A stretch of DNA of 64,000 bases. Source: Kutzneria chonburiensis (GTDB lineage Bacteria > Actinomycetota > Actinomycetes > Mycobacteriales > Pseudonocardiaceae). Positions 20,759 to 48,634 of the stretch are shown one piece after another. The notes beneath the pieces are model-generated. The model searched no databases and was not told the DNA's origin. It saw nothing but the letters and a program-made list of their open reading frames with translations. The stretch lies in NCBI RefSeq assembly GCF_028622115.1, contig NZ_CP097263.1, positions 10,117,501-10,181,500 of the forward strand, read 5' to 3'. A program made the translations under genes and the position numbers. The first letter of the stretch is position 1; the number at the start of each line of letters is the position of its first letter.

Positions 20759-20797
20759 GTGCTCCTCCTTGAGCTGGACGGCGCTGTTTGCCGCGAG

Positions 20798-20817
20798 CAT
20801 ACCGACCAGGCGGTATG
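20798..20817. promoter_or_regulatory. TetR-type inverted repeat upstream of the acyl-CoA operon
   Basis: CATACCG (20798-20804) and CGGTATG (20811-20817) are perfect complements around a 6-bp spacer, 40 bp before the operon start. The layout is typical of TetR repressors of lipid catabolism. No TetR gene lies nearby. Confidence 0.55.
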
Positions 20818-20881
20818 TCGACCAGTAGAGGCAGGTCACGCTGCCCTGGCGACCGTGTAAGACGTCTGACGCTGATGGGTC

Positions 20882-22687: not shown

Positions 22688-22772
22688 GAAATCCAGGGTA
22701 GCCACCGCCGCGGACCCGTCCCAGCTGCTGGGAAGTCCGCCGCCGTACGGGGAATTCCGCTGCACTGAGTCG

Positions 22773-33533: not shown

Positions 33534-34484
33534 CTAACTATGGCTCGACTCCCACCACGCGGCGTACACGGGGTGGTCGTGCACCAGGGTCTGGTAGCGC
33601 TTGACCACCTTGGCGTGCACCAGATCGGCCAGCCCGGCCACCGCGGAGGTCGGCCGCCACACCAGCTGCATGGTGCGCTGCAACGGGTTTCCCACCAGCG
33701 GCCGCAACACCATGCCCGGCACCGTCACGGCCGACGGGTAGAACGCGGCGATGGCGTGTCCACATCGGACCATCATGGCCGCGGTGGCCATGTCCGCGCC
33801 GCGGTGGCGGCAGCGCGGCGTGAAACCGGCTTCCTCGCAGGCCAGCCGTAACGACGTGGTCAGCCCGGACAGCTTCTCGTTGGGCAGCACCCAGTCCTCG
33901 TCGGCTAGGTCGGACAGCCGCAGCGCCATCCGGTCGGCCAGCCGGTGCGAGGCCGACAGACCGATGTAGGCGGTCTCGTTGACCAGGTTGCGGGTGCGCA
34001 GCCCGTCCGGCGGCTGGATCGGCACGGACGGCTGCTGCGCGTACACCGCGATGTCGAAGTCGGACGCCTGCAACACCTCGTTCAACGTCTCCGGCGTGTG
34101 CGCGAGCTGCGTCACCTGCTCCCGGTCGGGCAGCAACTCGCGGACGGCGCCGGCCAGCATCGGGGTGATCGGACCGAGCGGCCCGCACACCCGGATGGCG
34201 GCCGGCGGCTCGTCGCGCACCGCGAGCACCCGTGTGCTCTCCACCAGGTCGTCGAACTGGGCCAGCACGTCACGGGCCCGGGCCACCACGTGCTGGCCCA
34301 GGTCGGTGAGCGCGACCCCGCTGGGCGTGCGCCGGAACAGCGCCCCGCCGAGCTCCTGCTCGATCCGCTGCACCTGCGCGGTCAGGCCGGACTGGGCGAT
34401 CCGCAGCTGCGCCGCGGCCCGGCTGATGCTGCCGGCGTCGGCCACCGACTGGATCACCTGGAGATGTCGCAACTCGACCTGCAT
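33534..34484 (-). CDS. LysR-family transcriptional regulator (candidate pathway regulator)
   Basis: The 316-residue protein has the N-terminal LysR helix-turn-helix (LRHLQVIQSVADAGSISRAAAQL) and a full effector domain. It is the last gene of the flavodoxin-MFS-LysR operon that diverges from the biosynthetic operon at 36925. ATG 34484 follows GAGGAG, 10 bp after the MFS stop. An ATAAC-N6-GTTAT box at 36825-36840 in the shared promoter region is a candidate binding site. I infer control of the cluster. Confidence 0.9.
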   Translation of the reverse strand: MQVELRHLQVIQSVADAGSISRAAAQLRIAQSGLTAQVQRIEQELGGALFRRTPSGVALTDLGQHVVARARDVLAQFDDLVESTRVLAVRDEPPAAIRVCGPLGPITPMLAGAVRELLPDREQVTQLAHTPETLNEVLQASDFDIAVYAQQPSVPIQPPDGLRTRNLVNETAYIGLSASHRLADRMALRLSDLADEDWVLPNEKLSGLTTSLRLACEEAGFTPRCRHRGADMATAAMMVRCGHAIAAFYPSAVTVPGMVLRPLVGNPLQRTMQLVWRPTSAVAGLADLVHAKVVKRYQTLVHDHPVYAAWWESSHS

Positions 34485-34494
34485 CGTCTGCTCC

Positions 34495-36012
34495 TCAGTC
34501 GGAAGGGCCACCCAGACACACGGCGATCAGGACCAGCCCGCTCAGGCACAGCACCACGCTGGTGCCGGCGGTGATCCGCATCGCGTGCAGATACGCGGAG
34601 GTGGCGGCCTCCGTCAGTTCAGGCCGGCCGGCGGCGCGGGCGACCGACAGCGCCGCCTGCGCCGAGCCGAGAGCCTGGCGCGCCAGGTCGTCCGGCAGCC
34701 CGACCAGTGCCGGCCGCAGCTCCGACCGGTACCACGCGCTCAGGATCGTGCTGCCGACGGCGATGCCGAGCGTGCCGCCGAGCTGGCGCAGCCCGGACGT
34801 GACGGCCGAGCCGGCGCCGCTGCGTTCGGCCGGCAGGTTGTCCATGGCCGCGCTGGTCGCGGGAACCACGACCAGGCCCATGGCCAGACCCTGCACCAGC
34901 ATCATGAAACCGAACAGGACAACCGGTGTGGACGCGTCGAACACGAGATAGCACGCGAGCGTCGCAACGGCGACGATCATCCCGATCGACGCCACCCGGC
35001 GCACCGAGAAGCGCCGCACCAGGGCCGGCGCCCACAGGTTGCCGGTGAGGATGCCGACCGCGGTGGGCGCGATCGCCAGCCCCGCGCCGAGCGGGCTCAG
35101 TCCCAGGATGTCCTGGAGATAGAACGAGGCGTAGAACAGCTGCCCGGTGATGCCGAAGAACGCCACCGTCAACACCAGGCCGCCGCCGGCGAACCGCCGC
35201 CGCAGGAACAGCCGGACGTCGAAACTCGGTGCGCTGGAACGACTTTGCTGCACGGCGAACACCGCCAGCAGGGCCAGCCCGGCCATCAGCGGCACCAGCA
35301 CCGACGGCGAGTCCCAGCCGACGTCCCCGCCGATCTGGATCACGCCGTACACCACGCCCAGCAGGCCGCCGAACGACAGCGCCAACCCCGGCCGGTCCAG
35401 CGGCCGCCGCTGCGCCACGTGCAACCGCGGCACCCACAAACCGATACCCACCAGACAAATCGCCGTCACCGGCACGTTGAGCAGGAACACCGAGCCCCAC
35501 CAGAATCGGCTCAGCAGCAGTCCGCCGACGATCGGTCCGATGGCCAGGCCGACCGCGGCCGCCGAAGCCCAGATCGCCACGGCCTTAGGACGCTGCGCCG
35601 GCTCCGAGATCCGCAGCGCCACCGACAGCGTGGCCGGTGTGATCAAGGCCGCACCGACGCCCATCGCGCCCCGGGCGAGCACGAGTTCCAGCGGTGTGGC
35701 GGAAAACGCCGCGATCGATGACGTGACCATGAACACCACGAGCCCGGTGGACAGCGCCCGGCGCGGCCCGAACCGGTCGGCCAGCGCGCCGCCGGCGAAC
35801 ATCGCCGCCGCGTACACCACGGTGTACGCGCTGATCGCCCAGGCCAGCTCGCCGGTGCCGGCCCCGAGGCCGAGTACCGGGTCGGCCAGGGTCTTCACGG
35901 CCAGGTTGAGCACCGAGCTGTCCATCGCCGACACCGTCTGCGCGAGCACGGCGACGCCCAGCACGGCCGCCCAGATCCTGGGCCGCACAACGGGATCGTC
36001 GGCGACGGTCAC
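34495..36012 (-). CDS. MFS drug/proton antiporter (DHA2-type, 14 helices)
   Basis: The 505-residue transporter has about 14 membrane helices, the loop ADRFGPRRALSTGL (motif A) and LARGAMGVGAALITPATLSV in helix 5. It is of the EmrB/QacA type that exports aromatic or cationic compounds. It overlaps the flavodoxin gene upstream (GTGA) and precedes LysR. Export of the product of the adjacent cluster is the natural inference. Confidence 0.9.
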   Translation of the reverse strand: MTVADDPVVRPRIWAAVLGVAVLAQTVSAMDSSVLNLAVKTLADPVLGLGAGTGELAWAISAYTVVYAAAMFAGGALADRFGPRRALSTGLVVFMVTSSIAAFSATPLELVLARGAMGVGAALITPATLSVALRISEPAQRPKAVAIWASAAAVGLAIGPIVGGLLLSRFWWGSVFLLNVPVTAICLVGIGLWVPRLHVAQRRPLDRPGLALSFGGLLGVVYGVIQIGGDVGWDSPSVLVPLMAGLALLAVFAVQQSRSSAPSFDVRLFLRRRFAGGGLVLTVAFFGITGQLFYASFYLQDILGLSPLGAGLAIAPTAVGILTGNLWAPALVRRFSVRRVASIGMIVAVATLACYLVFDASTPVVLFGFMMLVQGLAMGLVVVPATSAAMDNLPAERSGAGSAVTSGLRQLGGTLGIAVGSTILSAWYRSELRPALVGLPDDLARQALGSAQAALSVARAAGRPELTEAATSAYLHAMRITAGTSVVLCLSGLVLIAVCLGGPSD

Positions 36013-36611
36013 GACACCGGGGCCAGCGCCGCGCGCCCGGCGACGAACACCGTGGCCTGCTCGGCCACCCGGCGACCCAGGTGCTCGGCGGTGGCCAGAT
36101 CGGACGCGTGCACGTCCTCCGGCCGCGTGCCCAGCAGCGACTGGGCCGCCGCGCCGCTGTGGAAGCCGAGGCGGTTCTGGTCGTGCTCGCTGCCCCGCAC
36201 GGTGTTCCACCCGGACTTCAGGCCGAGGTTCACCCAGGTCATCCCGTGCTGCGCGGCCAGCGTCTGGAAGTAGCCCAGCGTCGAGGCCTTGTCGCCGTAC
36301 TTGTCGCCGGAGTTGGTGAAGCCGCCGGCCAGCTTGTCCAGCCAGGTCTGCCGCAGGAAGCGCCGGGACGTGGCCTCGGCGAAGGCGTGGAACGCGGCCG
36401 ACGCGGTGCCCATGTAGGTCGGCGCGCCGAACACGATGGCGTGCGCGGCGTCCAGCGCCGCCCAGCCCGCTTCGTCGATCGTGTCCACGCTGACCAGCGT
36501 CGATTCGCAGCCGCTCACGGAAGCGGCCCCGGCGTGCACGGCGCCCGCAAATCTCGCGGTATGTCCCGTGCCGCCGTGGTAGGCCACCGCAACGTGTACG
36601 GAAATTGCCAC
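36009..36611 (-). CDS. flavodoxin-like NAD(P)H:FMN oxidoreductase (WrbA-like)
   Basis: The 200-residue flavodoxin fold has the phosphate loop AYHGGTGHTARFAG, FGAPTYMGTASAAFHAF near residue 60 and a GG-TNSG segment binding FMN. It reduces quinones or supplies reduced flavin. It is the first gene of the operon with MFS and LysR. A role in the nearby pathway, or in protection against quinone or diazo compounds, is speculative. Confidence 0.88.
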   Translation of the reverse strand: MAISVHVAVAYHGGTGHTARFAGAVHAGAASVSGCESTLVSVDTIDEAGWAALDAAHAIVFGAPTYMGTASAAFHAFAEATSRRFLRQTWLDKLAGGFTNSGDKYGDKASTLGYFQTLAAQHGMTWVNLGLKSGWNTVRGSEHDQNRLGFHSGAAAQSLLGTRPEDVHASDLATAEHLGRRVAEQATVFVAGRAALAPVS

Positions 36612-36924
36612 GATCGACTCCGATCATGTGAAGAATATGCGCCGGCATGGCGTGCGGACTGCCATGTTAGCGAGGCTCCGCAAGGTCAACCATAGGCCGT
36701 CTGCCTGCGTGAAACGTTCATCCCTTGACACTTGACGAACGGGCCCGCCCGCTCATAGCAGAGCATCTTCAAAGTCTCATCAGAGTTCAGCTAAGCGGTC
36801 ATCGGAACAATCTCTGGCGGCGGCATAACTGCGAAGTTATCGCGATCTGTTAGTTGTCCCGGCTTCGATTGCGCCCCAATCATTCACACCATCGCCGAAG
36901 AAGTTTGAACAGGAGGTGCGCACC
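36612..36924. promoter_or_regulatory. divergent promoter region of the biosynthetic cluster
   Basis: This 313-bp stretch between two divergent operons holds no gene. It is more AT-rich than its surroundings and contains ATAACTGCGAAGTTAT (36825-36840), an ATAAC-N6-GTTAT inverted repeat of the LysR-box type about 85-100 bp before the first biosynthetic gene. Confidence 0.55.
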
Positions 36925-37662
36925 GTGGCCGATCCCGGGAAGGCGTTCCGCACCCGGCGCCTGTCGCGCGCCGGGGACGGCCGGTACCTGTTCGTGCCGC
37001 TGGACCACAGCGTGTCGGACGGACCTGTGGTGCCCAACGAGGACTGGGACGAGCTGATCCACTCCGTGGTGCTCGGCGGGGCCGACGCCATCATCGTCCA
37101 CAAGGGACGGTTGCGGGCCATCGACCCGACGCTGCTCGACGACTGCGCGCTGGTCGTGCACCTGTCCGCCGGCACGTCGCACGCCGCCGACCAGCACGCC
37201 AAGGTGCTCGTCGGGGACGTCGAGGACGCGCTGCGGCTGGGGGCCGACGCGGTCAGCGTGCACGTCAACGTCGGCTCCGACACCGAGGCCCGGCAGCTGG
37301 CCGACCTGGGCGCGGTGGCCAGCCAGTGCCAGGAGTGGAACGTGCCGCTGATCGCGATGGCCTACGCCCGCGGCACGCGCATGGCCAACTCGTTCGATCC
37401 CACCGTGCTCTCGCACGTCGTCAACATCGCCGCCGACCTCGGCGCCGACATCGTCAAGACGTCGATGGCCCTGCCGGTCGAGCGGATGGCCGAGGTCACC
37501 GCCAGCTGCCCGATCCCGGTACTGGTGGCCGGCGGCCCGGCCGCCGACGCCGACCCCGACGGCGCCGGCCTCGTCGACTACGCCCGGTCCGCGCTGGCCG
37601 CCGGCTGCGCCGGCCTCGCCGTCGGCCGCCGCGTCTTCACCTCCCCGACCCCCGCTCCCTGA
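36925..37662 (+). CDS. creI: DhnA/FbaB-type aldolase, 3,4-AHBA pathway enzyme (GriI/CreI family)
   Basis: The 245-residue class I aldolase has PLDHSVSDGPV near the N-terminus (Asp/His of the ADH-synthase family), the Schiff-base Lys in DIVKTSMALP, and the phosphate loop VAGGPAAD. Homologues GriI and CreI condense aspartate semialdehyde with dihydroxyacetone phosphate, the first step to 3-amino-4-hydroxybenzoate. It is the first gene of the cluster. GTG 36925 is chosen because AGGAGG (36911-36916) sits 8 bp upstream. Without its partner next door, the archaeal dehydroquinate pathway would be the alternative. Confidence 0.9.
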   Translation: MADPGKAFRTRRLSRAGDGRYLFVPLDHSVSDGPVVPNEDWDELIHSVVLGGADAIIVHKGRLRAIDPTLLDDCALVVHLSAGTSHAADQHAKVLVGDVEDALRLGADAVSVHVNVGSDTEARQLADLGAVASQCQEWNVPLIAMAYARGTRMANSFDPTVLSHVVNIAADLGADIVKTSMALPVERMAEVTASCPIPVLVAGGPAADADPDGAGLVDYARSALAAGCAGLAVGRRVFTSPTPAP

Positions 37663-37727
37663 TGAACAAGCTCGCCGCCGTGCTGCACCCCGCCCAGGCC
37701 GCCGCCCGACTCTTGGAGACCGCGTGA
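37662..37727 (+). CDS. 21-codon ORF bridging creI and creH
   Basis: The ATG overlaps the creI stop (TGATG) and the TGA overlaps the creH GTG start (GTGA). The 21-residue peptide (MNKLAAVLHPAQAAARLLET plus A) is helical and Ala-rich. It has no ribosome site of its own. It may be only a coupling device carrying ribosomes from one gene to the next, or a remnant. I do not claim a function. Confidence 0.4.
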   Translation: MNKLAAVLHPAQAAARLLETA

Positions 37728-38803
37728 AATTCGCTTGGATCGACCTGCGCACCGTTCCGCAGCCGCAGCTGGAGGCCGTGGTCGCGGCCGCGGTGCACAC
37801 CCGGATCGCCGGCGTGGTCTCGGACGACCCGGCGCTGCTGGCCACGCTGCCGCCGACGCTGCAGAAAGTGGTGCTGGGCCCGGAAAGCGGTGGTGACCTG
37901 GTCACCACGATCGTCGACGACGGCGACCAGCTCGACCGGCTGATCGCCGCCGGCCACACCGGCGTGGTCTTCGTCCAGGTCAGTGACGACCGCACGCTCA
38001 ACCTGGCCTGCACGGCGGCGGCCCGGCTGCCGTGGACGATCGTCAGCTTCACCGACCCGACGAAGATCCCGCTGGAGATCGTGATCGCCGCGGCCGACCG
38101 GTCCGACGGCAAGCTGGTCTGCGTGGTCGGCGACATCGAGGAAGCCACCATCGTGCTGGACGTCCTCGAACACGGCTCGGACGGCCTGCTGCTCGCGCCG
38201 CGTGACGCCAACGAGGTGTTCCAGCTGGCCCGCCTGCTGGAAGCGGGCAGCAACGACCTGGCGCTGTCCACCCTGACCGTGGACCGGATCGACCACGTCG
38301 GCCTCGGCGACCGCGTGTGCGTCGACACCTGCTCGCACTTCGAGCAGGACGAGGGCATCCTGGTCGGCTCCTACTCGTCCGGCTTCATCCTCTGCGTCAG
38401 CGAGACGCATCCCTTGCCGTACATGCCGACCCGGCCGTTCCGGGTCAACGCCGGCGCGCTGCACTCGTACGTGCTCGGCCCGGACAACCGCACCAACTAC
38501 CTGTCCGAGCTGCACTCCGGCAGCACCGTGCTGGCGGTCAACACCGAGGGCCGCACCCGCCGGGTCGTGGTCGGCCGCGCGAAGCTGGAATCCCGGCCGC
38601 TGCTCCAGATCACGGCGCACTCGGGCGACGGCGTCGAGGTGAGCCTGACCGTGCAGGACGACTGGCACGTGCGGGTGCTCGGCCCGGGCCCGAAGGTCCG
38701 CAACGTCACCGAGTTGCAGCAGGGCGACGAGCTGCTGGGCTACATCGCCACCGACAAGCGCCACGTCGGCATCCCGATCGGCGAGTTCTGCAAGGAGAGC
38801 TGA
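37724..38803 (+). CDS. creH: 3-dehydroquinate synthase II-type enzyme for 3,4-AHBA (GriH/CreH family)
   Basis: The 359-residue protein belongs to the AroB'-type family. It starts KFAWIDLRTVP, has GLLLAPRDANEV and VDTCSHFEQDEGILVGSYSSGFILCVSETH, and ends with YIATDKRHVGIPIGEFCKE. GriH/CreH converts the C7 aldol product to 3-amino-4-hydroxybenzoate. Together with the aldolase in front it defines the 3,4-AHBA route. GTG 37724 follows TTGGAGACC; its stop overlaps the ligase start (TGATG). Confidence 0.9.
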   Translation: MKFAWIDLRTVPQPQLEAVVAAAVHTRIAGVVSDDPALLATLPPTLQKVVLGPESGGDLVTTIVDDGDQLDRLIAAGHTGVVFVQVSDDRTLNLACTAAARLPWTIVSFTDPTKIPLEIVIAAADRSDGKLVCVVGDIEEATIVLDVLEHGSDGLLLAPRDANEVFQLARLLEAGSNDLALSTLTVDRIDHVGLGDRVCVDTCSHFEQDEGILVGSYSSGFILCVSETHPLPYMPTRPFRVNAGALHSYVLGPDNRTNYLSELHSGSTVLAVNTEGRTRRVVVGRAKLESRPLLQITAHSGDGVEVSLTVQDDWHVRVLGPGPKVRNVTELQQGDELLGYIATDKRHVGIPIGEFCKES

Positions 38804-40194
38804 TGGAGCTCGTCGCAGATCTGCTGTCCCAACATCCCGACGACCTGCCCTACCTCATCGCCGATCACGTTGTCACGCACGGAGAACTGCGTGAAGCGGT
38901 ACGGCAGGAGGCGGCACTGTTCTCCTCGGCCGGGGTGCGCGAGGGCAGCACCGTGGCGTTGCAGATCCCACCCAGCTTCACCCAGATCGAAGTGCTGCTG
39001 GCGTTGTGGCAGCTCGGCGCGCAGGTGATGCTGGTCGACCATCGGCTCAAGCCGGCCGAGGTCGAGCAGCTGCGGGCGCTGTGCCGGCCGCAGCACGTGG
39101 TCCGGGCCGGCGCGGCCGGCTGGTCCCGGCTCAGCTTCCGGTCGCGCCACGAGCTCGTGACGGAGAAGCGCGCCGACGGCCTGCCGGCGAGCACCGACCA
39201 CCGGCTGATCCAGTTCAGCTCCGGCTCCACCGGGCGGCCCAAGGTGGTCGGCCGCACCGAGGCGTCGATCACCGCCGAGATCCGCCGGTTCAACCAGCTC
39301 ACCGGCATGCCGGCGCTGGGGGAGCGGGTGCTGCTGCTCAGTTCCACGGCGCACAGCTTCGGCCTGATCGCCGGGCTGCTGCACTCGCTGTACGCCGGTG
39401 TCGGCGTGGTGTTCGCGGCCAAGGTCGCCGCCAACGACATCCTTCGGGCCGCGGACGAGCACGAGGTCAGTGCGATCTTCGGGGTGCCGTTCCACTACGA
39501 ACTCCTTGCCACCGCGGAGAATCCGCCGCTGCTGCCGTCGCTGCGGTGCGCGGTCTCCGGCGGCGAGCTGATGCCGCCGGCGGTGGCCGAGCGATTCCAC
39601 GACGTGTACGGGGTTCGCGTCGGGGAGTCCTACGGCACCACCGAAACCGGTGTGATCGCCATGGACATCAGCGGGCGGCTGCGCCCGACGGTCGGCCCGG
39701 CCACCCCGGGCATCCTGCTGCGCATCCGTGACGGTGAGGTCGATGTGCAGCTGCCGACCACGCCGTACCTCACCGCGGACGGCCAGGACCGCTACGTCGA
39801 CGGCTGGCTGCGCACCCGGGACCGGGGCGAGCTGACCGTGGACGGCACGGTCCGGCTGCTCGGCCGCGGTGACTCGCTGGTGGTCATCGGCGGTCTCAAG
39901 GTCGACCTGACCGAGATCGAGGACGTGCTGACCAAGCACGGCTCGGTGGCCGAAGCCGTGCTGGTGCACGGCGAAGTCATCGAGGCTTACGTGTCCACGG
40001 TGGACGTTTCGCTGGCGGCCGAGGATCTCGTCCGCTGGTGTGCCGACCACCTGGCCGACTACAAGGTGCCGAAGCTGGTGCGGGTGCTGCCCCGGCTGCC
40101 GAGGACCCCCAACGGCAAGCTCATTCGCGACCGCGGCTCGCTGCGGGCGGCGGCGCTGGTCGCCGGCCTGCCCGATCCGGCCCGATCTGCCTGA
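38803..40194 (+). CDS. ANL-superfamily acyl-ACP ligase, probable 3,4-AHBA loading enzyme
   Basis: The 463-residue adenylate-forming enzyme has the P-loop FSSGSTGRPKVV (about residue 138), YGTTETG (A5), RTRDRGEL (A7), GRGDSLVVIGGLKVDLTEIE (A8) and PNGKLIRD with the A10 Lys. It is short for the superfamily, as loading ligases of aryl type II PKS systems are. Its place directly before the carrier proteins and behind creI/creH suggests it activates 3,4-AHBA and loads it on the carrier. Substrate choice is inference. Confidence 0.82.
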   Translation: MELVADLLSQHPDDLPYLIADHVVTHGELREAVRQEAALFSSAGVREGSTVALQIPPSFTQIEVLLALWQLGAQVMLVDHRLKPAEVEQLRALCRPQHVVRAGAAGWSRLSFRSRHELVTEKRADGLPASTDHRLIQFSSGSTGRPKVVGRTEASITAEIRRFNQLTGMPALGERVLLLSSTAHSFGLIAGLLHSLYAGVGVVFAAKVAANDILRAADEHEVSAIFGVPFHYELLATAENPPLLPSLRCAVSGGELMPPAVAERFHDVYGVRVGESYGTTETGVIAMDISGRLRPTVGPATPGILLRIRDGEVDVQLPTTPYLTADGQDRYVDGWLRTRDRGELTVDGTVRLLGRGDSLVVIGGLKVDLTEIEDVLTKHGSVAEAVLVHGEVIEAYVSTVDVSLAAEDLVRWCADHLADYKVPKLVRVLPRLPRTPNGKLIRDRGSLRAAALVAGLPDPARSA

Positions 40195-40208
40195 GAGGAA
40201 AGACAACC

Positions 40209-40487
40209 ATGACCGCGTCCACAGTGGACGACGCACGCGTGCGGGAGTTCGTGCTGAGCACGCTGGCCGGCGAGATGAACGTGCCGATCGACCGGGACAG
40301 GATCACCGACGACAGCCCGATCGGCACCAGCGGCATCGACCTGGAGTCGCTCAGCCTGGTCGAGCTGACGCTGCGGCTGGAGCGCGAGTTCGAGGTGAAG
40401 ATCCCGGACACCGACATCGAGGCCATCGGCGCCATGACGCTGGGGCAGCTGGCCGCCGACATCGTGCGGCGCAAGGCCGTCCAATGA
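40209..40487 (+). CDS. acyl carrier protein 1
   Basis: The 92-residue acidic four-helix protein carries the phosphopantetheine Ser in GIDLESLSLVEL. ATG 40209 follows GAGAGGAAAG. It would hold the aryl starter or the growing chain for the ketosynthase. It overlaps the second carrier gene by 4 bp. Confidence 0.9.
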   Translation: MTASTVDDARVREFVLSTLAGEMNVPIDRDRITDDSPIGTSGIDLESLSLVELTLRLEREFEVKIPDTDIEAIGAMTLGQLAADIVRRKAVQ

Positions 40488-40729
40488 CCGAGCAGGACGT
40501 CCGCGAGCTGCTGGCCGACCCGCGGATCTTCCCGGACCTGCCGGCCGACCTGCCGGCCGACGCCGAGCTGGTGATCGACTCGATGGCCCTGGTGTGGCTG
40601 CTGCACCAGGTGAAGGCCCGCTTCGGGGTGGACGCCGATCCGGACGACGACGAGCTGGACGAGTTCACCTCGGTCGCCCGCATCACGGCATACCTGAACC
40701 GGGCCCCGAGGAAGGTCGAGACGGCATGA
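40484..40729 (+). CDS. acyl carrier protein 2 (divergent)
   Basis: The 81-residue acidic protein has the carrier motif ELVIDSMALVWLLHQV with the attachment Ser followed by Met instead of Leu. It overlaps both neighbours as ATGA. Two carriers in one small system suggest that one takes the starter and the other malonate, or that each serves a different partner. Identity as a carrier protein is fairly safe; the division of labour is inference. Confidence 0.8.
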   Translation: MTEQDVRELLADPRIFPDLPADLPADAELVIDSMALVWLLHQVKARFGVDADPDDDELDEFTSVARITAYLNRAPRKVETA

Positions 40730-41844
40730 CGGGCGGGGTCGTCGTCACCGGGTACGGTGTGTTCACGGCGTTCGGCTGGGGCGAGAAGGCGTTGCGGGAC
40801 GGGGTGTTCACCGGCGCGCAGGTGTTCGCGCCGGCGCGCCGGTTCGACCCGACGCCGTTCCGGACGCCGATGACCGCCGCCGCGGCCGGCGACCCCGACC
40901 TGGTCGAGGTGCTCGGCGGCTGCGCCGACGACGCCGTGGACATGGCCGGCCTGCCGCCCGGCACCACGGTGGCGACACTGCTCGGCTCGGCCGGCGACTG
41001 GAAGTCGGTGACCCGGTTCTCGCGGGGCCTCGAGTTCTCGCCGGGGGCCGGCGTTCCCGGTGTGCTGGCCGGGATGGTGGCCGACCGGATCGGTTTCGAC
41101 GGGCCACGGCTGGCGTTCACCAACGCCTGCGTGGCCTCGGCCTCCGCCCTGATCCACGGCTGGCGGTTGATCACCGCCGGCCGGCAGGAGGTGGCGCTGT
41201 GCGCCGGGGCGTACCTGGTCGAGGAGGAGAACATGGCCAAGTTCGACTCCGGCCGGGCGTTGTCCAAGGACGGCGCGATCCGACCGTTCTCCTTGGACCG
41301 CAGCGGTTTGCTGCTGGGTGACGGCGCGGCCGCGATCGTGCTGGAGTCCGAGGAGCACGCTCGGGGCCGCGGTGCTCAGGTGCTGGCCCGGATGACCGGC
41401 GTCGGCGTCGCCTCGGACGCCTTCCACATCGCCAAACCTCATCCCGAGGGCCGTGGCATCAACTCTGCCATCTCCCAGGCGTTTCGCCGCGCCGGAGTGT
41501 CCGGTGTGGACTATGTCAACGCCCACGGCACGGGCACCCCGGCTAATGACGGCGCGGAGACCAACGGTCTGCGCGCGGGGGTCGGCACAGACACCCCGAT
41601 CAGCTCGACGAAGAGCACCACCGGGCACATGCTGGAGGCAGCCGGCGCGGTGGAGTTCGTGGTGTCGCTGCTGGCCTTGCTCGACGGCGTGATCCCGCCA
41701 ACCGCCGGATATCGGGTTCCGGACCCGGCCTGCGACCTCGACTACGTGACCGAGGGCCCGCGCCGGGTTCCGCTGCAACGGGTTTTGTCCCTGAACGCCG
41801 CGTTCGGCGGCATGAACACCGCGATCCTGTTGGAGCAGCCGTGA
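40726..41844 (+). CDS. type II polyketide ketosynthase
   Basis: The 372-residue condensing enzyme has the full triad: Cys 135 in TNACVASAS, His in NAHGTGTP and His in KSTTGHMLEAAG, with the Lys of that motif. It carries out decarboxylative Claisen condensation of the ACP-bound aryl starter with malonyl-ACP. It is shorter than the usual 410-420 residues, mainly in the N-terminal half. It is followed at once by a chain-length-factor-like partner. Confidence 0.9.
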   Translation: MTGGVVVTGYGVFTAFGWGEKALRDGVFTGAQVFAPARRFDPTPFRTPMTAAAAGDPDLVEVLGGCADDAVDMAGLPPGTTVATLLGSAGDWKSVTRFSRGLEFSPGAGVPGVLAGMVADRIGFDGPRLAFTNACVASASALIHGWRLITAGRQEVALCAGAYLVEEENMAKFDSGRALSKDGAIRPFSLDRSGLLLGDGAAAIVLESEEHARGRGAQVLARMTGVGVASDAFHIAKPHPEGRGINSAISQAFRRAGVSGVDYVNAHGTGTPANDGAETNGLRAGVGTDTPISSTKSTTGHMLEAAGAVEFVVSLLALLDGVIPPTAGYRVPDPACDLDYVTEGPRRVPLQRVLSLNAAFGGMNTAILLEQP

Positions 41845-42341
41845 TCGCCGTCGCCAGTGCGGAACTGTCCGGGGCGCTGGAGCCGGTGCCCGGCTTCATC
41901 GAGTCCAACTTCAGTCCGCTCGTGTACCACGCGGCGGCGCAATGCCTGCACGGCCGGGAGTTCGACGGCTCCCGGCTGGCGGTCGTGGTGTGCAGCCTCA
42001 TCGGCGATGCCTCCACGACCGGTCTGGCCAGCAAGCTGCTGGTCGAAGGCCAGGTGCACAACGCCATTCTGTTCATGCAGGCCACCGCCAACGCCGTGCT
42101 GGGCTACCTCAGCCGCGAGTTCGACCTGACCGGCCCGCTCCTCAGCATGTCCACAGTGGACGACGATCCGCTGGACACCGCCGAGCTGCTGCTGGCTGAT
42201 CCTGAGCTGGACGCCGTGCTGCTGCTCACCGTCGAGCTGGCCGCCGACGAGCGCGCCGCGGCCGTGTACCGGCTGCTCGGCCGTACCCCACCGACCACCG
42301 ACGGGGCGTCCGCGCTCCTGCTGGAAAGGGAACCGCAGTGA
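41841..42341 (+). CDS. truncated ketosynthase-like partner (chain-length-factor type)
   Basis: The 166-residue protein matches only the N-terminal half of the KS fold (ketoacyl-synt_2 type). The active-site stretch reads FMQATANAVLGYL: Gln stands where the Cys should be, as in chain-length factors and KSQ domains. It lacks the His-containing C-terminal half altogether. GTG overlaps the KS stop, and its own stop overlaps the diazotase start. It probably forms a heterodimer with the KS, as in aryl-polyene and other highly reducing type II systems. Confidence 0.75.
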   Translation: MIAVASAELSGALEPVPGFIESNFSPLVYHAAAQCLHGREFDGSRLAVVVCSLIGDASTTGLASKLLVEGQVHNAILFMQATANAVLGYLSREFDLTGPLLSMSTVDDDPLDTAELLLADPELDAVLLLTVELAADERAAAVYRLLGRTPPTTDGASALLLEREPQ

Positions 42342-44002
42342 TTTCCAAGGAAGAACGCGCCCGGATCGCGGCGGACACCGAGCTCGGCGCGGGCAACGTG
42401 CTGCACCGGATCAAGGAGTACGGCCGGCCGCTGGACGAGCCGGTGCTGTGGACCGACGGCACCTGGCAGGCCCCCGACGGGAGCCGCCCGACCGTGCTCA
42501 CCCTCGGCCGGCTGTACGAGATCGTGGAGACCTACGCCGGTTTCTACGCCAGCAAGGGCATCAAGCCGCGGGACGTGGTCGGCGTGCTCACCGCGTCCAG
42601 CACCGAGTTCGCGATCAACTTCATGGCGGTCAACTCGCTGGGCGCGATCCCGTCCTTCACCAATGCCAAGCTGCGCCCGGAAATCGCCCGTGAGTACATC
42701 CGGCGACAGGGTGCCTCCGGCGCGGTCACCGACGCCGAGCGGCACGAAACCCTGGCGGGCGGTGAGCTGGGCTTCGTGATCACGTCGTCGGATGTCCGGC
42801 CGGAGCACCGGGATCACCTGCCGGCCACCGGTTGGCCGTACCGGCACGACAAGACCGACCCGATCATCATCTCGCACTCCTCCGGCACCACCGGCATGCC
42901 CAAGGCCGTGCCGCACACCCACGAAACCCTGCTCTACGCCCAGTTGCACCGGCTCAAGCTGTCGGTCGGCGGCTCGATGGGCCGGCTGCTGGTCGCGTTG
43001 CCGGGCAACCACAACGCCGCCATGTCGGTGATGATGTTCGGGCTGCTGCTGGGCTCGCCGGTGATGCTGCTGTCCAGCCAGCGCGGCGACGACGTTCTCG
43101 ATGCCGTGCAGGAGTTCAAGCCCACCACGGTGTTCGGCTTCTCCGGCACGTACGCGCAGATGGCAACGGCCGATCTGTCCAAATGGGACACTTCAAGCAT
43201 CGAGGCCTACTACAACACCGGCGACGCCGCCCACGAGGCGCACATCCGGGTGCTGGTCGGCCTGGGCAGCCACGAGGAGATCGGCCGCGACCTCAAGCCG
43301 CACCGGGTCCCCGGCTCGGTGTTCACCGACGGCCTCGGCTCGTCCGAGACCGGCTATTCCATCTTCCACAATGGACACCGGCCGGGCAGCACGTCCTTCG
43401 GCCGCTGCATCGGCAAGCCGATGAGCTTCGCCAAGGCCGCCGTGCTGTCCGAGGACGGCCGCCCGCTGCCGCCCGGCGAGGTCGGCCGGCTCGGCGTCAA
43501 GTCGCCGACGCTGACTCCCGGCTACTGGAACGACTCCATCACCTGGCACCGGCTGCGGCTGGGCGGCTACTGGCTCACCGGCGACCTGTCGTACCAGGAC
43601 GCGGAGGGCAACTTCTACCACCTGGACCGGGCGCCCGACGCCATCCGCACCCGTGACGGCATCGTGTTCAGCACCCGTACCGAGGAACTGCTGCTGGCCA
43701 ACCGGCCGGAGCTGGTCGACTGCACGGTCACCGCGATCGTCGAGGACGGCGTGCAGGCCGACTGGGACGGCGACGGCATCGGCGACGCGTACGTGTTGTT
43801 GCAGTTCGCGGGGGCCGAGGACCCGGCCGAGGACCTGACCACGTGGGTCAACGATGTGCTGGCGCAGCACGGGTTTCCCCCTGTCACCCGGGCGCTGCGG
43901 ATGGACTACACGGACGTCTCGGTCGGCGTGACCGGTAAGGTGCTCAAGCGCGTGATGCGTGAACGGGCCAAGGAGCTCGTCGCGCGCGCCGAGGGGAAGT
44001 GA
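42338..44002 (+). CDS. creM: adenylate-forming enzyme, candidate ATP-dependent diazotase (CreM/AvaA6/CmaA6 type)
   Basis: The 554-residue ANL protein has SHSSGTTGMPKAVPHTH (A3), DGLGSSETGYSIF (A5), YWLTGDLSYQDAEG (A7) and GVTGKVLKRV with the A10 Lys. It looks like an acyl-CoA synthetase, but a carboxylate ligase already exists in the operon. Together with the creE/creD nitrite genes this recalls CreM and the Ava/Cma diazotases. Those use ATP and nitrite to turn an aryl amine into a diazo group. I infer the same for this protein on a 3-amino-4-hydroxyaryl acid. A CoA ligase is the alternative. Confidence 0.75.
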   Translation: MISKEERARIAADTELGAGNVLHRIKEYGRPLDEPVLWTDGTWQAPDGSRPTVLTLGRLYEIVETYAGFYASKGIKPRDVVGVLTASSTEFAINFMAVNSLGAIPSFTNAKLRPEIAREYIRRQGASGAVTDAERHETLAGGELGFVITSSDVRPEHRDHLPATGWPYRHDKTDPIIISHSSGTTGMPKAVPHTHETLLYAQLHRLKLSVGGSMGRLLVALPGNHNAAMSVMMFGLLLGSPVMLLSSQRGDDVLDAVQEFKPTTVFGFSGTYAQMATADLSKWDTSSIEAYYNTGDAAHEAHIRVLVGLGSHEEIGRDLKPHRVPGSVFTDGLGSSETGYSIFHNGHRPGSTSFGRCIGKPMSFAKAAVLSEDGRPLPPGEVGRLGVKSPTLTPGYWNDSITWHRLRLGGYWLTGDLSYQDAEGNFYHLDRAPDAIRTRDGIVFSTRTEELLLANRPELVDCTVTAIVEDGVQADWDGDGIGDAYVLLQFAGAEDPAEDLTTWVNDVLAQHGFPPVTRALRMDYTDVSVGVTGKVLKRVMRERAKELVARAEGK

Positions 44003-44003
44003 C

Positions 44004-44978
44004 GTGACGGCGCCGATGGAGGTGTACCGGCTGTGGTGGCTGCACGACGCCCGCTGGTACCAGGGCGTGGCCAGCCGCTACGGCCAGGAAGCCGCCAACG
44101 AGATCAACGCCGAGGCCATGCGTTTCGTGGCCACCCGCGTGGGAAAGCAGGTCGCGCGGGCGCACGGTGAGCCGATCGCCGACGCGGATTCGGCGACCTT
44201 GGCCAAGCTGTACGAGCGCTGCGCCGACATCATGTTCCCGAACGAGCTGCGGGACGGCGGCGTGACGGCGCTCGACGACGAGCTGCTGGAGCTGACCATG
44301 CGGCAGAACTTCGCCGTGGTCATGGTCCGGATGGCCGGCTCGCTGGACGGATACCGGTGCCCGTGCACCGAGATCCACGCCGGCTGGTCGGACGGGCTCG
44401 GCGTGACGCTGACCGAGAACAGGGCGACGGGCTGCCTGCGGCACGGGGATCCCGCGTGCCGCCTGCTGATGCGCGTCGGAGGAGAAGCTGATCATGCGGG
44501 TGTTGCTGGCCGGTGCGACCGGGGTGATCGGGCGGGAGCTGCTTCCTTTGTTACGCAAGGCCGGTCACCACGTGACCGCCCTTGCGCGCGGTGCGTCCCA
44601 CGACGTGGACGCGGATGCCGTGGTCGCCGCGGACCTGTTGGACGGGCCCGGCTTGACGGCTGCCGTCGTCGAGGCGCGACCGGAAGTCGTTGTGCACCAG
44701 GTCACTGCATTGCGGCCGGTCAGCGGCGACACCCGCTGGGAAGTCTTCGGACGGACCGCGCACGTGCGCCGCGTCGGCACGGCCAACCTGGTCGACGCGG
44801 CCCGTGCCGCCGGCGCACGGCGGATCGTGGCGCAGAGCATCGCTTTCGCCACCGCGCCGGTCGGCGATCCCGTGTTGGACGAGAATGCGCCACTGTACGT
44901 CAATGCACCCGATGCCACCTGGGCGCTGACCGTGCAAGCCGTTGCGGCGCTGGAAGACACGGTGCTCGGGGCTGGTGA
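44004..44978 (+). CDS. DUF6125-like protein with reading frame that does not close before the next gene
   Basis: GTG 44004 lies one base after the diazotase stop. About 160 residues form a recognisable small domain: LWWLHDARWYQGVASRYG, then paired helices and a Cys-bearing end (GYRCPCTEIHAGWSDGLG, GCLRHGDPACRLL). This fits the DUF6125/thiazoline-hydrolase-like family, whose role is unknown. After MRVGGEA at 44489 the frame has no stop until 44978, running 485 bp into the SDR gene as Arg/Gly-rich antisense-like sequence. A TGA in the neighbouring frame at 44489-44491, just before the SDR start, suggests one base is missing here. Confidence 0.6.
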   Translation: MTAPMEVYRLWWLHDARWYQGVASRYGQEAANEINAEAMRFVATRVGKQVARAHGEPIADADSATLAKLYERCADIMFPNELRDGGVTALDDELLELTMRQNFAVVMVRMAGSLDGYRCPCTEIHAGWSDGLGVTLTENRATGCLRHGDPACRLLMRVGGEADHAGVAGRCDRGDRAGAASFVTQGRSPRDRPCARCVPRRGRGCRGRRGPVGRARLDGCRRRGATGSRCAPGHCIAAGQRRHPLGSLRTDRARAPRRHGQPGRRGPCRRRTADRGAEHRFRHRAGRRSRVGRECATVRQCTRCHLGADRASRCGAGRHGARGW

Positions 44979-45432
44979 CCTGTCGCCGATCGTGTTGCGG
45001 TACGGCAGTTTGTACGGGCAGTACACCCTGTACGACGCGAGCGGAGCCATCGGGCAGGCCGTGCACCTCGGTCGGCTGCCGCTGGTCGGCGACGGGGCCG
45101 GGCTGACGTCGTTCGTGACCGTACGAGACGCGGCCCTGGCCACCGTGCTGGCCGTCGACCACCCCACCACCGGCGTGTTCAACATCGTCGACGACCGGCC
45201 GGCGGCGGCGCGCGACTGGCTGCCCGGCTACGCCGACCTGCTCGGCGCGCCGGAACCCAAGCGGATCCCGGTCGACCTGGGGGAGCGGCTGCTCGGCTGG
45301 TACGGGGCGTACCAGCAGACCCGCCAGCGCGGCGCGTCCAACGCCAAAGCCCGCCTCGAGCTTGCCTGGAGGCCCACCGTGCCAACCTGGGCCGACGGTC
45401 TCTGCCAAGCCCTGCCGGAGGTTGCACGGTGA
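44494..45432 (+). CDS. extended SDR lacking the YxxxK motif (candidate diazo-removing reductase or ketoreductase)
   Basis: The 312-residue protein has the cofactor loop LLAGATGVIGREL and an extended SDR layout (VVHQVTALRP, AQSIAFATAP, VLRYGSLYGQYT). Where extended SDRs have Tyr-x3-Lys it reads DATWALTVQAVAALE, so neither catalytic residue is present. In the Ava/Cma pathways the diazo group is replaced by hydride; this gene is the best candidate here. Ketoreduction is the alternative but poorly supported by the active site. ATG 44494 follows GGAGGAGAAG. Confidence 0.75.
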   Translation: MRVLLAGATGVIGRELLPLLRKAGHHVTALARGASHDVDADAVVAADLLDGPGLTAAVVEARPEVVVHQVTALRPVSGDTRWEVFGRTAHVRRVGTANLVDAARAAGARRIVAQSIAFATAPVGDPVLDENAPLYVNAPDATWALTVQAVAALEDTVLGAGDLSPIVLRYGSLYGQYTLYDASGAIGQAVHLGRLPLVGDGAGLTSFVTVRDAALATVLAVDHPTTGVFNIVDDRPAAARDWLPGYADLLGAPEPKRIPVDLGERLLGWYGAYQQTRQRGASNAKARLELAWRPTVPTWADGLCQALPEVAR

Positions 45433-47297
45433 GGATCTGCATCATCGGCGCCGGTCCGCGCGGCACATCTGTGCTGGAACGGATCATCGCCAACCGCGAC
45501 GCGCCCGTCGAGGTGCATCTGATCGACCCCTTCCCGCCGGGGGCGGGCAGTGTGTGGCGGATCAGCCAGTCCGACACGCTGCTGATGAACACGGTCGCGT
45601 CCCAGGTCAGCCTGTACACGGACGACAGCGTGGAGCTGGCCGGCCCGATCGTGCCGGGGCCGTCGCTGTACGAGTGGGCCCGTTCGGTCACCGGTGACCA
45701 GCCGGCGCACGTCCGCGACGAGATCGCCGCGCTGGGGCCGGACACGTACCCGAGCCGGGCGTTGTACGGCTACTACCTGGAGTGGGTGTTCACCCAGTTG
45801 CTCGCGGCGGCCGGCGACGTGTCCGTGACGGTGCACCGCGGCACCGCCGTCGCCGTCGACGACCAGCCCGACGGCCGGCAGACCGTTCGGCTCAAGAACG
45901 GGTCCACAGTGGACGACGCCGACGCCGTGGTGCTGGCGCTGGGGCACGGTCCGGTGGTGCTCACCGACGAGGAGACCCGGCTGCGGGACTTCGCCGCCGA
46001 GCGCGGGCTGACCTACATCGCACCGAGCAACCCGGCCGACCTGGACCTGTCCCGGATCGAGCCGGGGGAGAAGGTTGCGCTGCGCGGGCTGGGCCTGAAC
46101 TTCTTCGACTACCTGGCCCTGTTCACCGAGGGCCGCGGCGGCCGCTACGAGCGCACCGACGACGGGCTGGTCTACCGCCCGTCCGGCCTGGAGCCGGCCA
46201 TGTACGCCGGCTCGCGGCGCGGCGTCCCGCACCACGCCCGCGGTGAGAACCAGAAGGGCCCGGTCGGCCGGCACACGCCGGTTTTCCTGACGCCGCAGGT
46301 CATCGAGCGGTTGCGGCGGTCCGGTCGGGTCCGGTTCATGCGCGACGTGTGGCCGTTGATCGACAAGGAGGCCCGTGCCGTCTACTACGCGACGCTGCTG
46401 GCCGACCGGCTCGGTCCCGACCAGGTCGCGGAGTTCGCCAAGCTGTACCAGGAAGTCCTGGTTGCCGACGGCGATGACGGCGAGCTGCTGGCCCGGTTCG
46501 GCGTGGCCGAGACGGAACGGTGGAGCTGGGAGCGGATCGCCAAGCCGTACGGCGAGAAGGCGTTCGCCGACCAGGCCGACTACCAGCGCTGGCTGCTCGG
46601 CTACCTGCGCTCCGACGCGCGCGAGGCCAAGCGCGGCAACGTGTCCAGCCCGTTGAAAGCCGCACTCGACACGCTGCGCGATCTGCGCAACGAGATTCGC
46701 ATGGTCGTCGACCACGGCGGCATCACCGGCGGCTCCTATCGGGACGAGCTGGCCCGCTGGTACACCCCGTTCAACGCCTTCCTGTCCATCGGCCCGCCGC
46801 TGCGCCGCATCGAGGAGATGACCGCGCTGCTGGAGGCCGACGTGCTGCGCGTGCTCGGGCCCGGCGTCCGGGTGTCGCTCGGCGAGACCTTCCTGGTCGA
46901 CGCCACGTCCGTGCCGGCCCCGCCGATCGCCGTCACCACGCTCATCGAGGCCCGCATCCCCGACGTGGATCTCAACCGCAGCGCCAATCCGCTGCTGCGG
47001 TACCTCAAGGCCACCGGCCAGTGCCGGCCGTTCCACATTCCGGACGAGGGCGCGGAGTCGTTCGAGAGCGGCGGTGTCGCCGTCACCGCGCGGCCGTACC
47101 ACGTGATCGACGCCGCCGACCGGCCGCATCCCGCCCGGTTCGCCTACGGCGTGCCCACCGAGTACGTTCACTGGGTGACCGCCGCCGGCATCCGCCCGGG
47201 CGTCGGCTCGGTGACGCTGGAGGACTCCGACGCCATCGCGCGGGCCGCGCTGGCCGTGCGGACCGTGCCGCTGGCGGACGTTGGGAGGCTGGCGTGA
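45429..47297 (+). CDS. creE: flavin-dependent L-aspartate N-oxygenase (CreE family)
   Basis: The 622-residue protein starts CIIGAGPRGTSVLERI (FAD loop) and has the family blocks PFPPGAGSVW, MNTVASQVSLYTDDSV, GPSLYEWARS and ALRGLGLNFFDYL (second nucleotide loop). CreE oxidises aspartate to nitrosuccinate. It is followed by a 4-bp overlap with the CreD-type lyase, the diagnostic pair for nitrous acid formation. A paralogue lies at 20882. GTG start overlaps the SDR stop. Confidence 0.88.
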   Translation: MRICIIGAGPRGTSVLERIIANRDAPVEVHLIDPFPPGAGSVWRISQSDTLLMNTVASQVSLYTDDSVELAGPIVPGPSLYEWARSVTGDQPAHVRDEIAALGPDTYPSRALYGYYLEWVFTQLLAAAGDVSVTVHRGTAVAVDDQPDGRQTVRLKNGSTVDDADAVVLALGHGPVVLTDEETRLRDFAAERGLTYIAPSNPADLDLSRIEPGEKVALRGLGLNFFDYLALFTEGRGGRYERTDDGLVYRPSGLEPAMYAGSRRGVPHHARGENQKGPVGRHTPVFLTPQVIERLRRSGRVRFMRDVWPLIDKEARAVYYATLLADRLGPDQVAEFAKLYQEVLVADGDDGELLARFGVAETERWSWERIAKPYGEKAFADQADYQRWLLGYLRSDAREAKRGNVSSPLKAALDTLRDLRNEIRMVVDHGGITGGSYRDELARWYTPFNAFLSIGPPLRRIEEMTALLEADVLRVLGPGVRVSLGETFLVDATSVPAPPIAVTTLIEARIPDVDLNRSANPLLRYLKATGQCRPFHIPDEGAESFESGGVAVTARPYHVIDAADRPHPARFAYGVPTEYVHWVTAAGIRPGVGSVTLEDSDAIARAALAVRTVPLADVGRLA

Positions 47298-48634
47298 CCG
47301 GTGCCGACTCCGGGCTGCTGGCCCCGACCTGGGCCGGCACGCCGGTGGCCGGGGAGACCGACGACGAGGCGTGGCTGCGGGCCATGGTCGACGTCGAGGC
47401 GGCGCTGGCCCGGGCCCAGGCCCGACTCGGCATCGTGCCCGACAGCGCGGCCAAGGCCATCTCCGCGGTGTCGTCGTCGCAGCTCGACGTCGTCCAGCTG
47501 GCCGCCGACTCCCGTGGGGCCGCCAACCCCGTCGTCGCCTTCGTGCCGGCGCTGATGAAGCTGGTGCCGCCGGAGGTCGCCGAGTACGTGCACCGGGGCT
47601 CCACCAGCCAGGACATTCTGGACAGCGCGGCCATGCTGGTCGTGCAGCGGGTTCGGTCGCTGGTGCTGGCCGACCTCCGGCGCTGTGCCGACGCGCTGGC
47701 CCGGCTGGCCGTCGACCACCGCTCGACCTTGATCGCTGGGCGGACCCTGACGCAGCACGCGGTGCCCACGACGTTCGGGCTGAAGGCCGCCGGCTGGTTG
47801 ACGCTCGTGCTGGACGCGATCGAGCGGCTCGAGGCGTTGGTGTTGCCGGCCGAGCTGGCCGGCGCGGCCGGCACCCTTGCCGCGTATGTCGAGTACGGTC
47901 GGCTGGCCGGTGTCGGCGGCGGTGTCGAGCTGATCGGCCCGTTCGCCGAGGAGCTGGGGCTGGCCGAGCCGGTCGGCCCGTGGCACACCGCCCGGACCCC
48001 GATTCTCGATGTGGGCCACGCCCTTCAGTTCGTCGCCGGCGCGCTCGGCAAGATCGCCGTTGACGTGCAGGTGTTGTCCCGTACGGAGATCGGCGAGGTC
48101 GCCGAGCCCGCCGCCGATGGACGAGGCGCTTCGTCGGCCATGCCGCAGAAGCGAAATCCGGTGCTGGCCACGTTGATCGTCACTGCCGCGCGGCAGGTGC
48201 CCGCGCAGGTGTCGGTGCTGGCCGCCAGCATGGTTGCCGAGGACGAGCGTCCCGGCGGGGCCTGGCATGCCGAGTGGCAGACCCTTCGCGAGGCGCTCCG
48301 CCTGGTCGGCGGCGCGGCGTTCACCGCAGCGGAGTTGTTGGCGGGCTTGGAGGTCTTCCCCGAGCGCATGGCGGCCAACCTGGCATTGACCGGCGGCGCG
48401 ATCGTCAGCGAGCGGCTCAATGTCGCCCTGGCGCCGGTGTTGGGCAAGGCGGCGGCCAAGAAGGTGCTTGCCGAGGCGGCTCGTGAGGCCGCGGCCAACG
48501 GAACGTCCCTGCGCGCGGCCCTGGCCGGCCGCATCGAGGTCGAACTGCCCCTGGACGAGCTGTTGGATCCCGCGCGCTACCTCGGCGACGCCGCGGCGCT
48601 CGTGGACCGGGTGTTGGCGCGGTACCACAACTAG
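47294..48634 (+). CDS. creD: nitrosuccinate lyase (CreD, fumarase/aspartase superfamily)
   Basis: The 446-residue lyase has the three superfamily regions: HRGSTSQDILDSA, the histidine helix near TLTQHAVPTTFG and the signature SSAMPQKRNPV. By sequence it is PcaB-like (carboxymuconate cycloisomerase). Next to creE its likely reaction is the release of nitrous acid from nitrosuccinate, giving fumarate. It ends the biosynthetic operon. An alternative as the missing pcaB of the pca operon 40 kb away is less likely. Confidence 0.87.
   Translation: MTGADSGLLAPTWAGTPVAGETDDEAWLRAMVDVEAALARAQARLGIVPDSAAKAISAVSSSQLDVVQLAADSRGAANPVVAFVPALMKLVPPEVAEYVHRGSTSQDILDSAAMLVVQRVRSLVLADLRRCADALARLAVDHRSTLIAGRTLTQHAVPTTFGLKAAGWLTLVLDAIERLEALVLPAELAGAAGTLAAYVEYGRLAGVGGGVELIGPFAEELGLAEPVGPWHTARTPILDVGHALQFVAGALGKIAVDVQVLSRTEIGEVAEPAADGRGASSAMPQKRNPVLATLIVTAARQVPAQVSVLAASMVAEDERPGGAWHAEWQTLREALRLVGGAAFTAAELLAGLEVFPERMAANLALTGGAIVSERLNVALAPVLGKAAAKKVLAEAAREAAANGTSLRAALAGRIEVELPLDELLDPARYLGDAAALVDRVLARYHN

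Follow-up and report, generated by a model that had tools for sequence, protein, structure and literature searches.

The window, a stretch of 64,000 nucleotides covering positions 10117501-10181500 of the 10.41 Mb single-contig genome of Kutzneria chonburiensis, carries twelve genes on the forward strand between window positions 36916 and 48634, in the order I-H-A1-A2-A3-A4-A5-A6-B-A7-E-D (Table 1); the same order is given for the published operon (PMC10777205). Pfam and NCBIfam searches bore out eleven genes that a first-pass annotation had listed, each at its place and on the + strand. The interval proposed there (36925..48634) did hold these eleven, but the small gene B was not listed and three divergent genes resembling cmaG, cmaF and cmaR (33534-36611) were left outside, while the description of the junctions as mostly 4-bp overlaps applies to six of the eleven. 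A promoter and terminator scan returned nothing exceeding chance. Directly 3' of the operon, 48766-52806 (+) encodes a 1346-aa protein with carboxypeptidase-regulatory and Kelch repeats, which is probably unrelated.

Table 1. Features of the cma-type locus in window coordinates; functions are predicted from homology, and identities are to the reference cluster L039.
Feature	Position	Strand	Evidence
cmaR-like LysR regulator	33534..34511	-	Pfam LysR_substrate and HTH_1; 64% local identity
cmaF-like MFS exporter	34495..35970 (start approximate)	-	MFS_1; EmrB-type below cut-off; 60% local identity
cmaG-like flavodoxin/FMN oxidoreductase, proposed ketoreductase	36009..36611	-	FMN_red PF03358, 30.5 bits (cut-off 24); WrbA-type below cut-off; 75% local identity
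cmaI, DhnA-type aldolase (DeoC/DhnA), putative 3,4-AHBA synthesis	36916..37662 (alternative start 36925)	+	NF005556, 282.4 bits (cut-off 241); 83.9% identity
cmaH, DHQ-synthase-II-like putative 3,4-AHBA synthase	37724..38803	+	NF002625, 530.2 bits (cut-off 375); 80.4% identity
cmaA1, acyl-ACP ligase, predicted 3,4-AHBA loading	38803..40194	+	AMP-binding and AMP-binding_C; 73.7% identity
cmaA2, ACP, predicted malonyl carrier	40209..40487 (ATG 40209 start inferred)	+	PP-binding, E 3.6e-8, over cut-off
cmaA3, ACP, predicted 3,4-AHBA carrier	40484..40729	+	PP-binding, 19.9 bits (cut-off 20.8); Trp38 and His41
cmaA4, ketosynthase	40726..41844	+	Pfam ketoacyl-synthase; ACVAS, NAHGT, SSTK and TGH motifs
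cmaA5, putative half-size chain length factor, 166 aa	41841..42341	+	AlphaFold2 model with Foldseek KS/CLF matches; 62.3% identity
cmaA6, putative ATP-dependent diazotase	42338..44002	+	NF058622, 1072.9 bits; 8ztz_B, 1067 bits
cmaB homologue	44004..44978 (conserved part to ~44490)	+	Homology to relatives; usual stop lost
cmaA7, putative NADPH-dependent diazo-removing reductase, extended SDR without YxxxK	44494..45432	+	NF058621, 466.6 bits; NAD-dependent epimerase-type
cmaE, CreE-type putative aspartate monooxygenase	45429..47297	+	NAD_binding_9 (FAD-NAD(P)-binding); 70.7% identity
cmaD, CreD-type putative nitrosuccinate lyase	47294..48634	+	Lyase/ADSL_C; CreD 5xny, 432.5 bits; NF052556, 588.2 bits (below cut-off 650)

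In profile searches, A6 homologues exceeded the cut-off in 22 of 390 genomes of the window's family, among them all seven searched genomes of the genus Kutzneria, and in 25 of 392 genomes drawn from Streptomyces, and in a 394-genome draw from the window's class the window's own genome alone exceeded it. Stretches of up to 19.9 kb were fetched around 46 relatives (21 from the window's family and 25 from Streptomyces). The order from I to A6 was kept in 46 of 46, and the full twelve-gene order from I to D in 27; since this order recurs across relatives, a chance origin of the gene set is excluded. Most relatives without the full order lacked E and D in the sequence retrieved, and tblastn over the 46 stretches returned no match for B in 1, A7 in 4, E in 16, D in 17, G in 20 and R in 20. 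All twelve operon genes had dN/dS values of 0.12-0.25 against cluster L040; the highest values in other comparisons were 0.54 (A2 versus L043) and 0.63 (A3 versus L039), A1 of L043 being omitted for a stop within the compared segment.

One A6-like locus, L052 (genome G187), fell below the A6 cut-off and was excluded from the 46: its diverged diazotase (57% identical to A6) adjoins a CreE homologue, and AHBA genes are absent from the stretch. A scan of named genomes, queried with generic AMP-binding peptides, gave at least five ava/cma-type clusters among the 80 loci listed; the matches listed included K. buriramensis, a Kutzneria MAG, Lentzea nigeriaca, Goodfellowiella coeruleoviolacea and Streptomyces geranii. 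Two Kitasatospora loci (L058 and L059) were likewise among the matches listed; they pair a more distant A6 (41-42%) with relatives of A1, A2, A4 and A5, and the AHBA, E/D and A7 genes are absent from their stretches.

As a reference for the cma pathway we chose cluster L039 (genome G226), whose A6 shows no difference from the solved chain 8ztz_B across 551 residues; we take 8ztz to be CmaA6. The UniProt entry of CmaA6 is W5W4E6 (PMC11705231). L039 was benchmarked against 19 Streptomyces clusters (L159-L177), 18 of them with FabG found; of the 19, 18 had A7, 14 had E and 13 had D. The mean global identities of L039 to these clusters (A5 33.8%, A6 65.1%, A7 57.4% and A1 61.4%) approach the published values between cma and ava (35.4, 65.3, 58.0 and 61.4% respectively; PMC10777205), with larger deviations for B (58.0 vs 50.8%), A3 (56.9 vs 51.9%) and E (51.5 vs 57.6%). 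L039 thus serves as a fair proxy for cma. The twelve operon proteins of the window are 60.5-84.5% identical to those of L039 globally.

Relative to the cma cluster, gene B of the window has an extended frame. B terminates a few bases short of A7 in all seven relatives compared (six from Kutzneria, plus L046), whereas in the window the usual stop is gone through the loss of one base from a run of G, so that the frame continues to 44978 (325 codons), 485 bp into A7 and out of frame with it. The start and ribosome site of A7 are retained despite this read-through. The solved-structure search returned nothing for B, and its Pfam matches were sub-threshold only; among B homologues, DUF6125 appeared below threshold in six of six and ATC_hydrolase in four of six. 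The loss of the stop might impair B, and the deletion is either genuine or a product of the assembly. We consider it unlikely that the cluster is decaying in the window strain and yields little or no product. Such decay would agree with a B devoid of the stop found in all seven relatives, and with the sister Kutzneria cluster L045 (G223), which looks damaged (A1 is split over two frames and ~1.4 kb extra lies between I and H); but every other frame is open and under purifying selection, and the change in B, a single base missing from a run of G, may stem from the assembly.

Kawai et al. (PMC10777205) described an ava cluster leading to avenalumic acid and a cma cluster of Kutzneria albida leading to p-coumaric acid, and found 134 related clusters in a database search that used three criteria: H and I, a KS-CLF pair and an A6 homologue. 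All three are present in the window: H with I, KS with CLF, and an AvaA6-type diazotase over the cut-off. In the cma subtype, cmaG and cmaR replace avaA8 (FabG) and avaC (PMC10777205). The window carries cmaG and cmaR, and avaA8 and avaC are absent; among the scanned genes from 30007 to 52806 there was no FabG-like gene and a single MFS gene. Across the 46 relatives, 26 had cmaG only, 18 had FabG only, two had neither (L033 and L176) and none had both, where FabG means a match of >90 bits to a single generic FabG query inside the fetched stretch. A FabG-like gene does occur at 19997-20839 (-), 12.7 kb beyond cmaR and among unrelated genes.

The CLF and the trees place the window with cma as well. 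At the level of global identity the window CLF was 62.3% identical to that of L039, versus a mean of 33.5% to the 19 Streptomyces (ava-type) CLFs; tblastn local identities to most other clusters were ~50-58% and did not separate the types, while global identity did. In a FastTree of A4 plus A6, the window and L039 fell in a clade (support 1.0) of ten cmaG-bearing clusters, and a separate clade (0.945) comprised L176 and all 18 clusters that bear FabG; the cmaG-bearing clusters overall were not a single clade. In the CLF tree, the window grouped with L039 and six other clusters (0.87), and the wider cmaG-type group was supported at 0.28 only. Compared with cma of Kutzneria albida as described in PMC10777205, the locus has in common all 15 genes, the operon order, the flanking R-F-G genes and a cma-type CLF. 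With ava of Streptomyces sp. RI-77 (avenalumic acid; Table 1 of PMC10777205) it shares the core genes from I to D, but ava, as presented there, has a FabG ketoreductase and AvaC and no CmaG or CmaR, and the window CLF is only ~34% identical to those of ava-type relatives. PMC13061610 and PMC11429834, in the portions drawn on here, gave no further information on clusters of this type. The shared core would allow the window cluster to make avenalumic acid, by two extensions, in place of p-coumaric acid; given the CLF type, the presence of cmaG and cmaR with no FabG among the genes scanned from 30007 to 52806, and the position in the trees, we regard this outcome as highly unlikely and reject avenalumic acid as the product.

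The assembly line of the p-coumarate-type pathway would begin from 3-amino-4-hydroxybenzoic acid (3,4-AHBA), and homology supports the earlier suggestion of this starter and of an aminocoumarate-type acid built on it. The two carrier proteins are told apart by a DS..L.W.LH motif (Trp38 and His41), found in 47 of 47 A3 sequences and in 0 of 47 A2 sequences; in CmaA3 these two residues are the pair proposed to contact the ligase (PMC10777205). The ACVAS, NAHGT, SSTK and TGH motifs were invariant in 47 ketosynthases.

A5 is remarkably small. With start codons partly inferred, the CLF lengths were 166 aa in the window, 175 in L039, 165-264 in 27 cmaG-bearing clusters (the window included) and 209-277 in the 19 Streptomyces clusters. 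A5 had no Pfam match at E 0.01 and a sub-threshold one to PF00109 (E 0.15), a family matched by four of six A5 homologues (best 4.2e-6). No significant relation between CLF and KS emerged from profile comparison, whether 6 or 47 sequences were used, and a search of solved-structure sequences with A5 gave nothing useful. An AlphaFold2 model from six sequences (mean pLDDT 83.4, pTM 0.81) had Foldseek matches to 7f28, FabF, ApeC (6qsp_B, E 1.7e-6) and the ishigamide KS/CLF chain 6kxe_B. Since the model resembles ketosynthases and chain length factors, A5 is best read as a CLF with a half-thiolase fold, a label taken from the predicted fold, the position of the gene and weak Pfam matches; the earlier wording of a CLF-like protein agrees with this prediction. 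In comparison with the aryl polyene pair ApeO/ApeC, the A5 model matches ApeC, but the ApeC chain has 238 residues and A5 166.

The first-pass annotation had left room for a product that keeps its diazo group. The SDR it listed (here 44494-45432) is however itself the predicted diazo-removing enzyme: A7 matched NF058621 (3-diazoavenalumate denitrifying reductase) with 466.6 bits over an equivalog cut-off of 400, and is thus classed with AvaA7-type reductases. The YxxxK motif was found in 0 of 43 A7 sequences, as delimited by tblastn; its absence would be consistent with hydride being passed to a diazonium without the need for an acid catalyst. Retention of the diazo group in the window, giving 3-diazocoumaric acid or an adduct, has several points in its favor: i) A6 precedes A7; ii) the B frame overlies A7 and could disturb its translation; and iii) A7 is the most divergent operon enzyme relative to L039 (61.1% identity). 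Against these, A7 is intact, exceeds the equivalog cut-off, has its own start codon with GGAGGAG upstream, and shows dN/dS of 0.18-0.21 against four close Kutzneria clusters (L040, L043, L044 and L045) and 0.41 against L039. Because A7 is there, intact and under purifying selection, diazo retention finds no support in the window, and we give it very little chance. In the spinamycin (spi) and cremeomycin (cre) clusters, which share with the window the ANS pathway and a CreM-type diazotase, the N-N bond stays in the products, as a diazo group in cremeomycin and a hydrazine-type bond in spinamycin; spi, like the window, is an aryl polyene cluster, and the account of them in PMC11705231, as far as it is used here, describes no A7-type removal.

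The preceding diazotisation is assigned by homology, in line with what had been proposed for the 42338 protein. A6 matched NF058622 (3-aminoavenalumate diazotase) with 1072.9 bits against an equivalog cut-off of 975, the next best family reaching 141.6, and aligned to 8ztz_B with 1067 bits, a chain that the A6 of L039, 84.5% identical to the window's, matches over 551 of 551 residues. Although the 42338 protein lies within the AMP-binding superfamily, there is virtually no prospect that it is an ordinary CoA or ACP ligase with E and D serving another pathway, because its match to the diazotase family is at equivalog level, far beyond that to the next family, and is seconded by the alignment to 8ztz_B; a plain CoA ligase was rejected on this ground, and an enzyme with CoA ligase activity only is accordingly unlikely.

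The supply of nitrous acid by the creE/creD pair, also part of the earlier proposal, is supported by homology: E matched no NCBIfam model and resembles the solved FAD protein 8cp2, and the best solved match of D was CreD (5xny), with 588.2 bits to the nitrosuccinate lyase model NF052556, less than its curated cut-off of 650. CreE and CreD homologues, the marks of the ANS pathway, thus stand side by side in the operon. Elsewhere in the window, the product of 20882-22765 (-) is another FAD protein of CreE type (37% identical), whose neighbours include a FabG-like SDR, two acyl-CoA dehydrogenases and an enoyl-CoA hydratase but, among those scanned, no CreD-like lyase. Five other Kutzneria genomes have similar CreE-like copies at a distance of ~20-30 kb from their cma cluster, the copy in G223 being broken into pieces.

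Taken together, the locus is very probably a Kutzneria member of the cma-type branch of ava/cma clusters that makes p-coumaric acid, with 3-aminocoumaric and 3-diazocoumaric acid as intermediates. Gene content, gene order, family membership, CLF type and conservation are observations of this analysis, and the reactions are those we infer for the window enzymes from published cma and ava work. I and H would form 3,4-AHBA, which A1 would place onto the ACP A3. The ketosynthase A4 with the half-size CLF A5 would then add one malonyl unit from the ACP A2, with the help of B. E and D would convert aspartate to nitrous acid, which A6 would activate with ATP so that the amine is diazotised to 3-diazocoumaric acid, and A7 would exchange the diazo group for a hydride taken from NADPH, with loss of N2 and formation of p-coumaric acid. 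This chemistry is that of the already published pathway (PMC10777205), and the coupling of a PKS to diazotisation is not new.

A7 lay within the cluster in 42 of the 46 relatives and was missing in L041, L042, L157 and L170. The last is an ava-type Streptomyces cluster (G1077) that was removed from the A7-less list since its genome holds an A7 (L178, 526.8 bits) ~1 Mb from the cluster. The genomes of the other three carry no A7 that reaches the 400-bit cut-off, the best matches being 103 bits in G086 and 220.7 bits in G202, with none at E 1e-15 in G961. The 220.7-bit copy in G202 is probably a paralogue, because A7-like copies of 202-227 bits accompany the true A7 in all seven Kutzneria genomes. 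The clusters L041, L042/L054 and L157 are of cma type and end at B, with no A7, E or D in the stretch. Searches for CreE homologues elsewhere in the A7-less genomes gave none at E 0.001 in G202, one (38%) in G086 and two full-length copies (57%) in G961. That these A7-less clusters with a PKS and A6 (Goodfellowiella coeruleoviolacea L054/G202, G086 and Streptomyces G961) release 3-diazocoumaric acid or a product derived from it is a tentative and rather doubtful suggestion. No mention of A7-less, A6-bearing clusters was found in the sections of PMC10777205 used here or in the literature listings searched.

If the suggestion were true, the same core would give a plain phenolic acid in some clusters and a reactive diazo metabolite in others, and clusters that keep A6 without the diazo-removing enzyme are places to look for diazo metabolites. 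The clusters with a half-size CLF, on the other hand, offer a compact system for studies of chain-length control. Within Kutzneria itself, the presence of A6-bearing clusters of the ava/cma type in all seven genomes searched indicates a stable feature of the genus.
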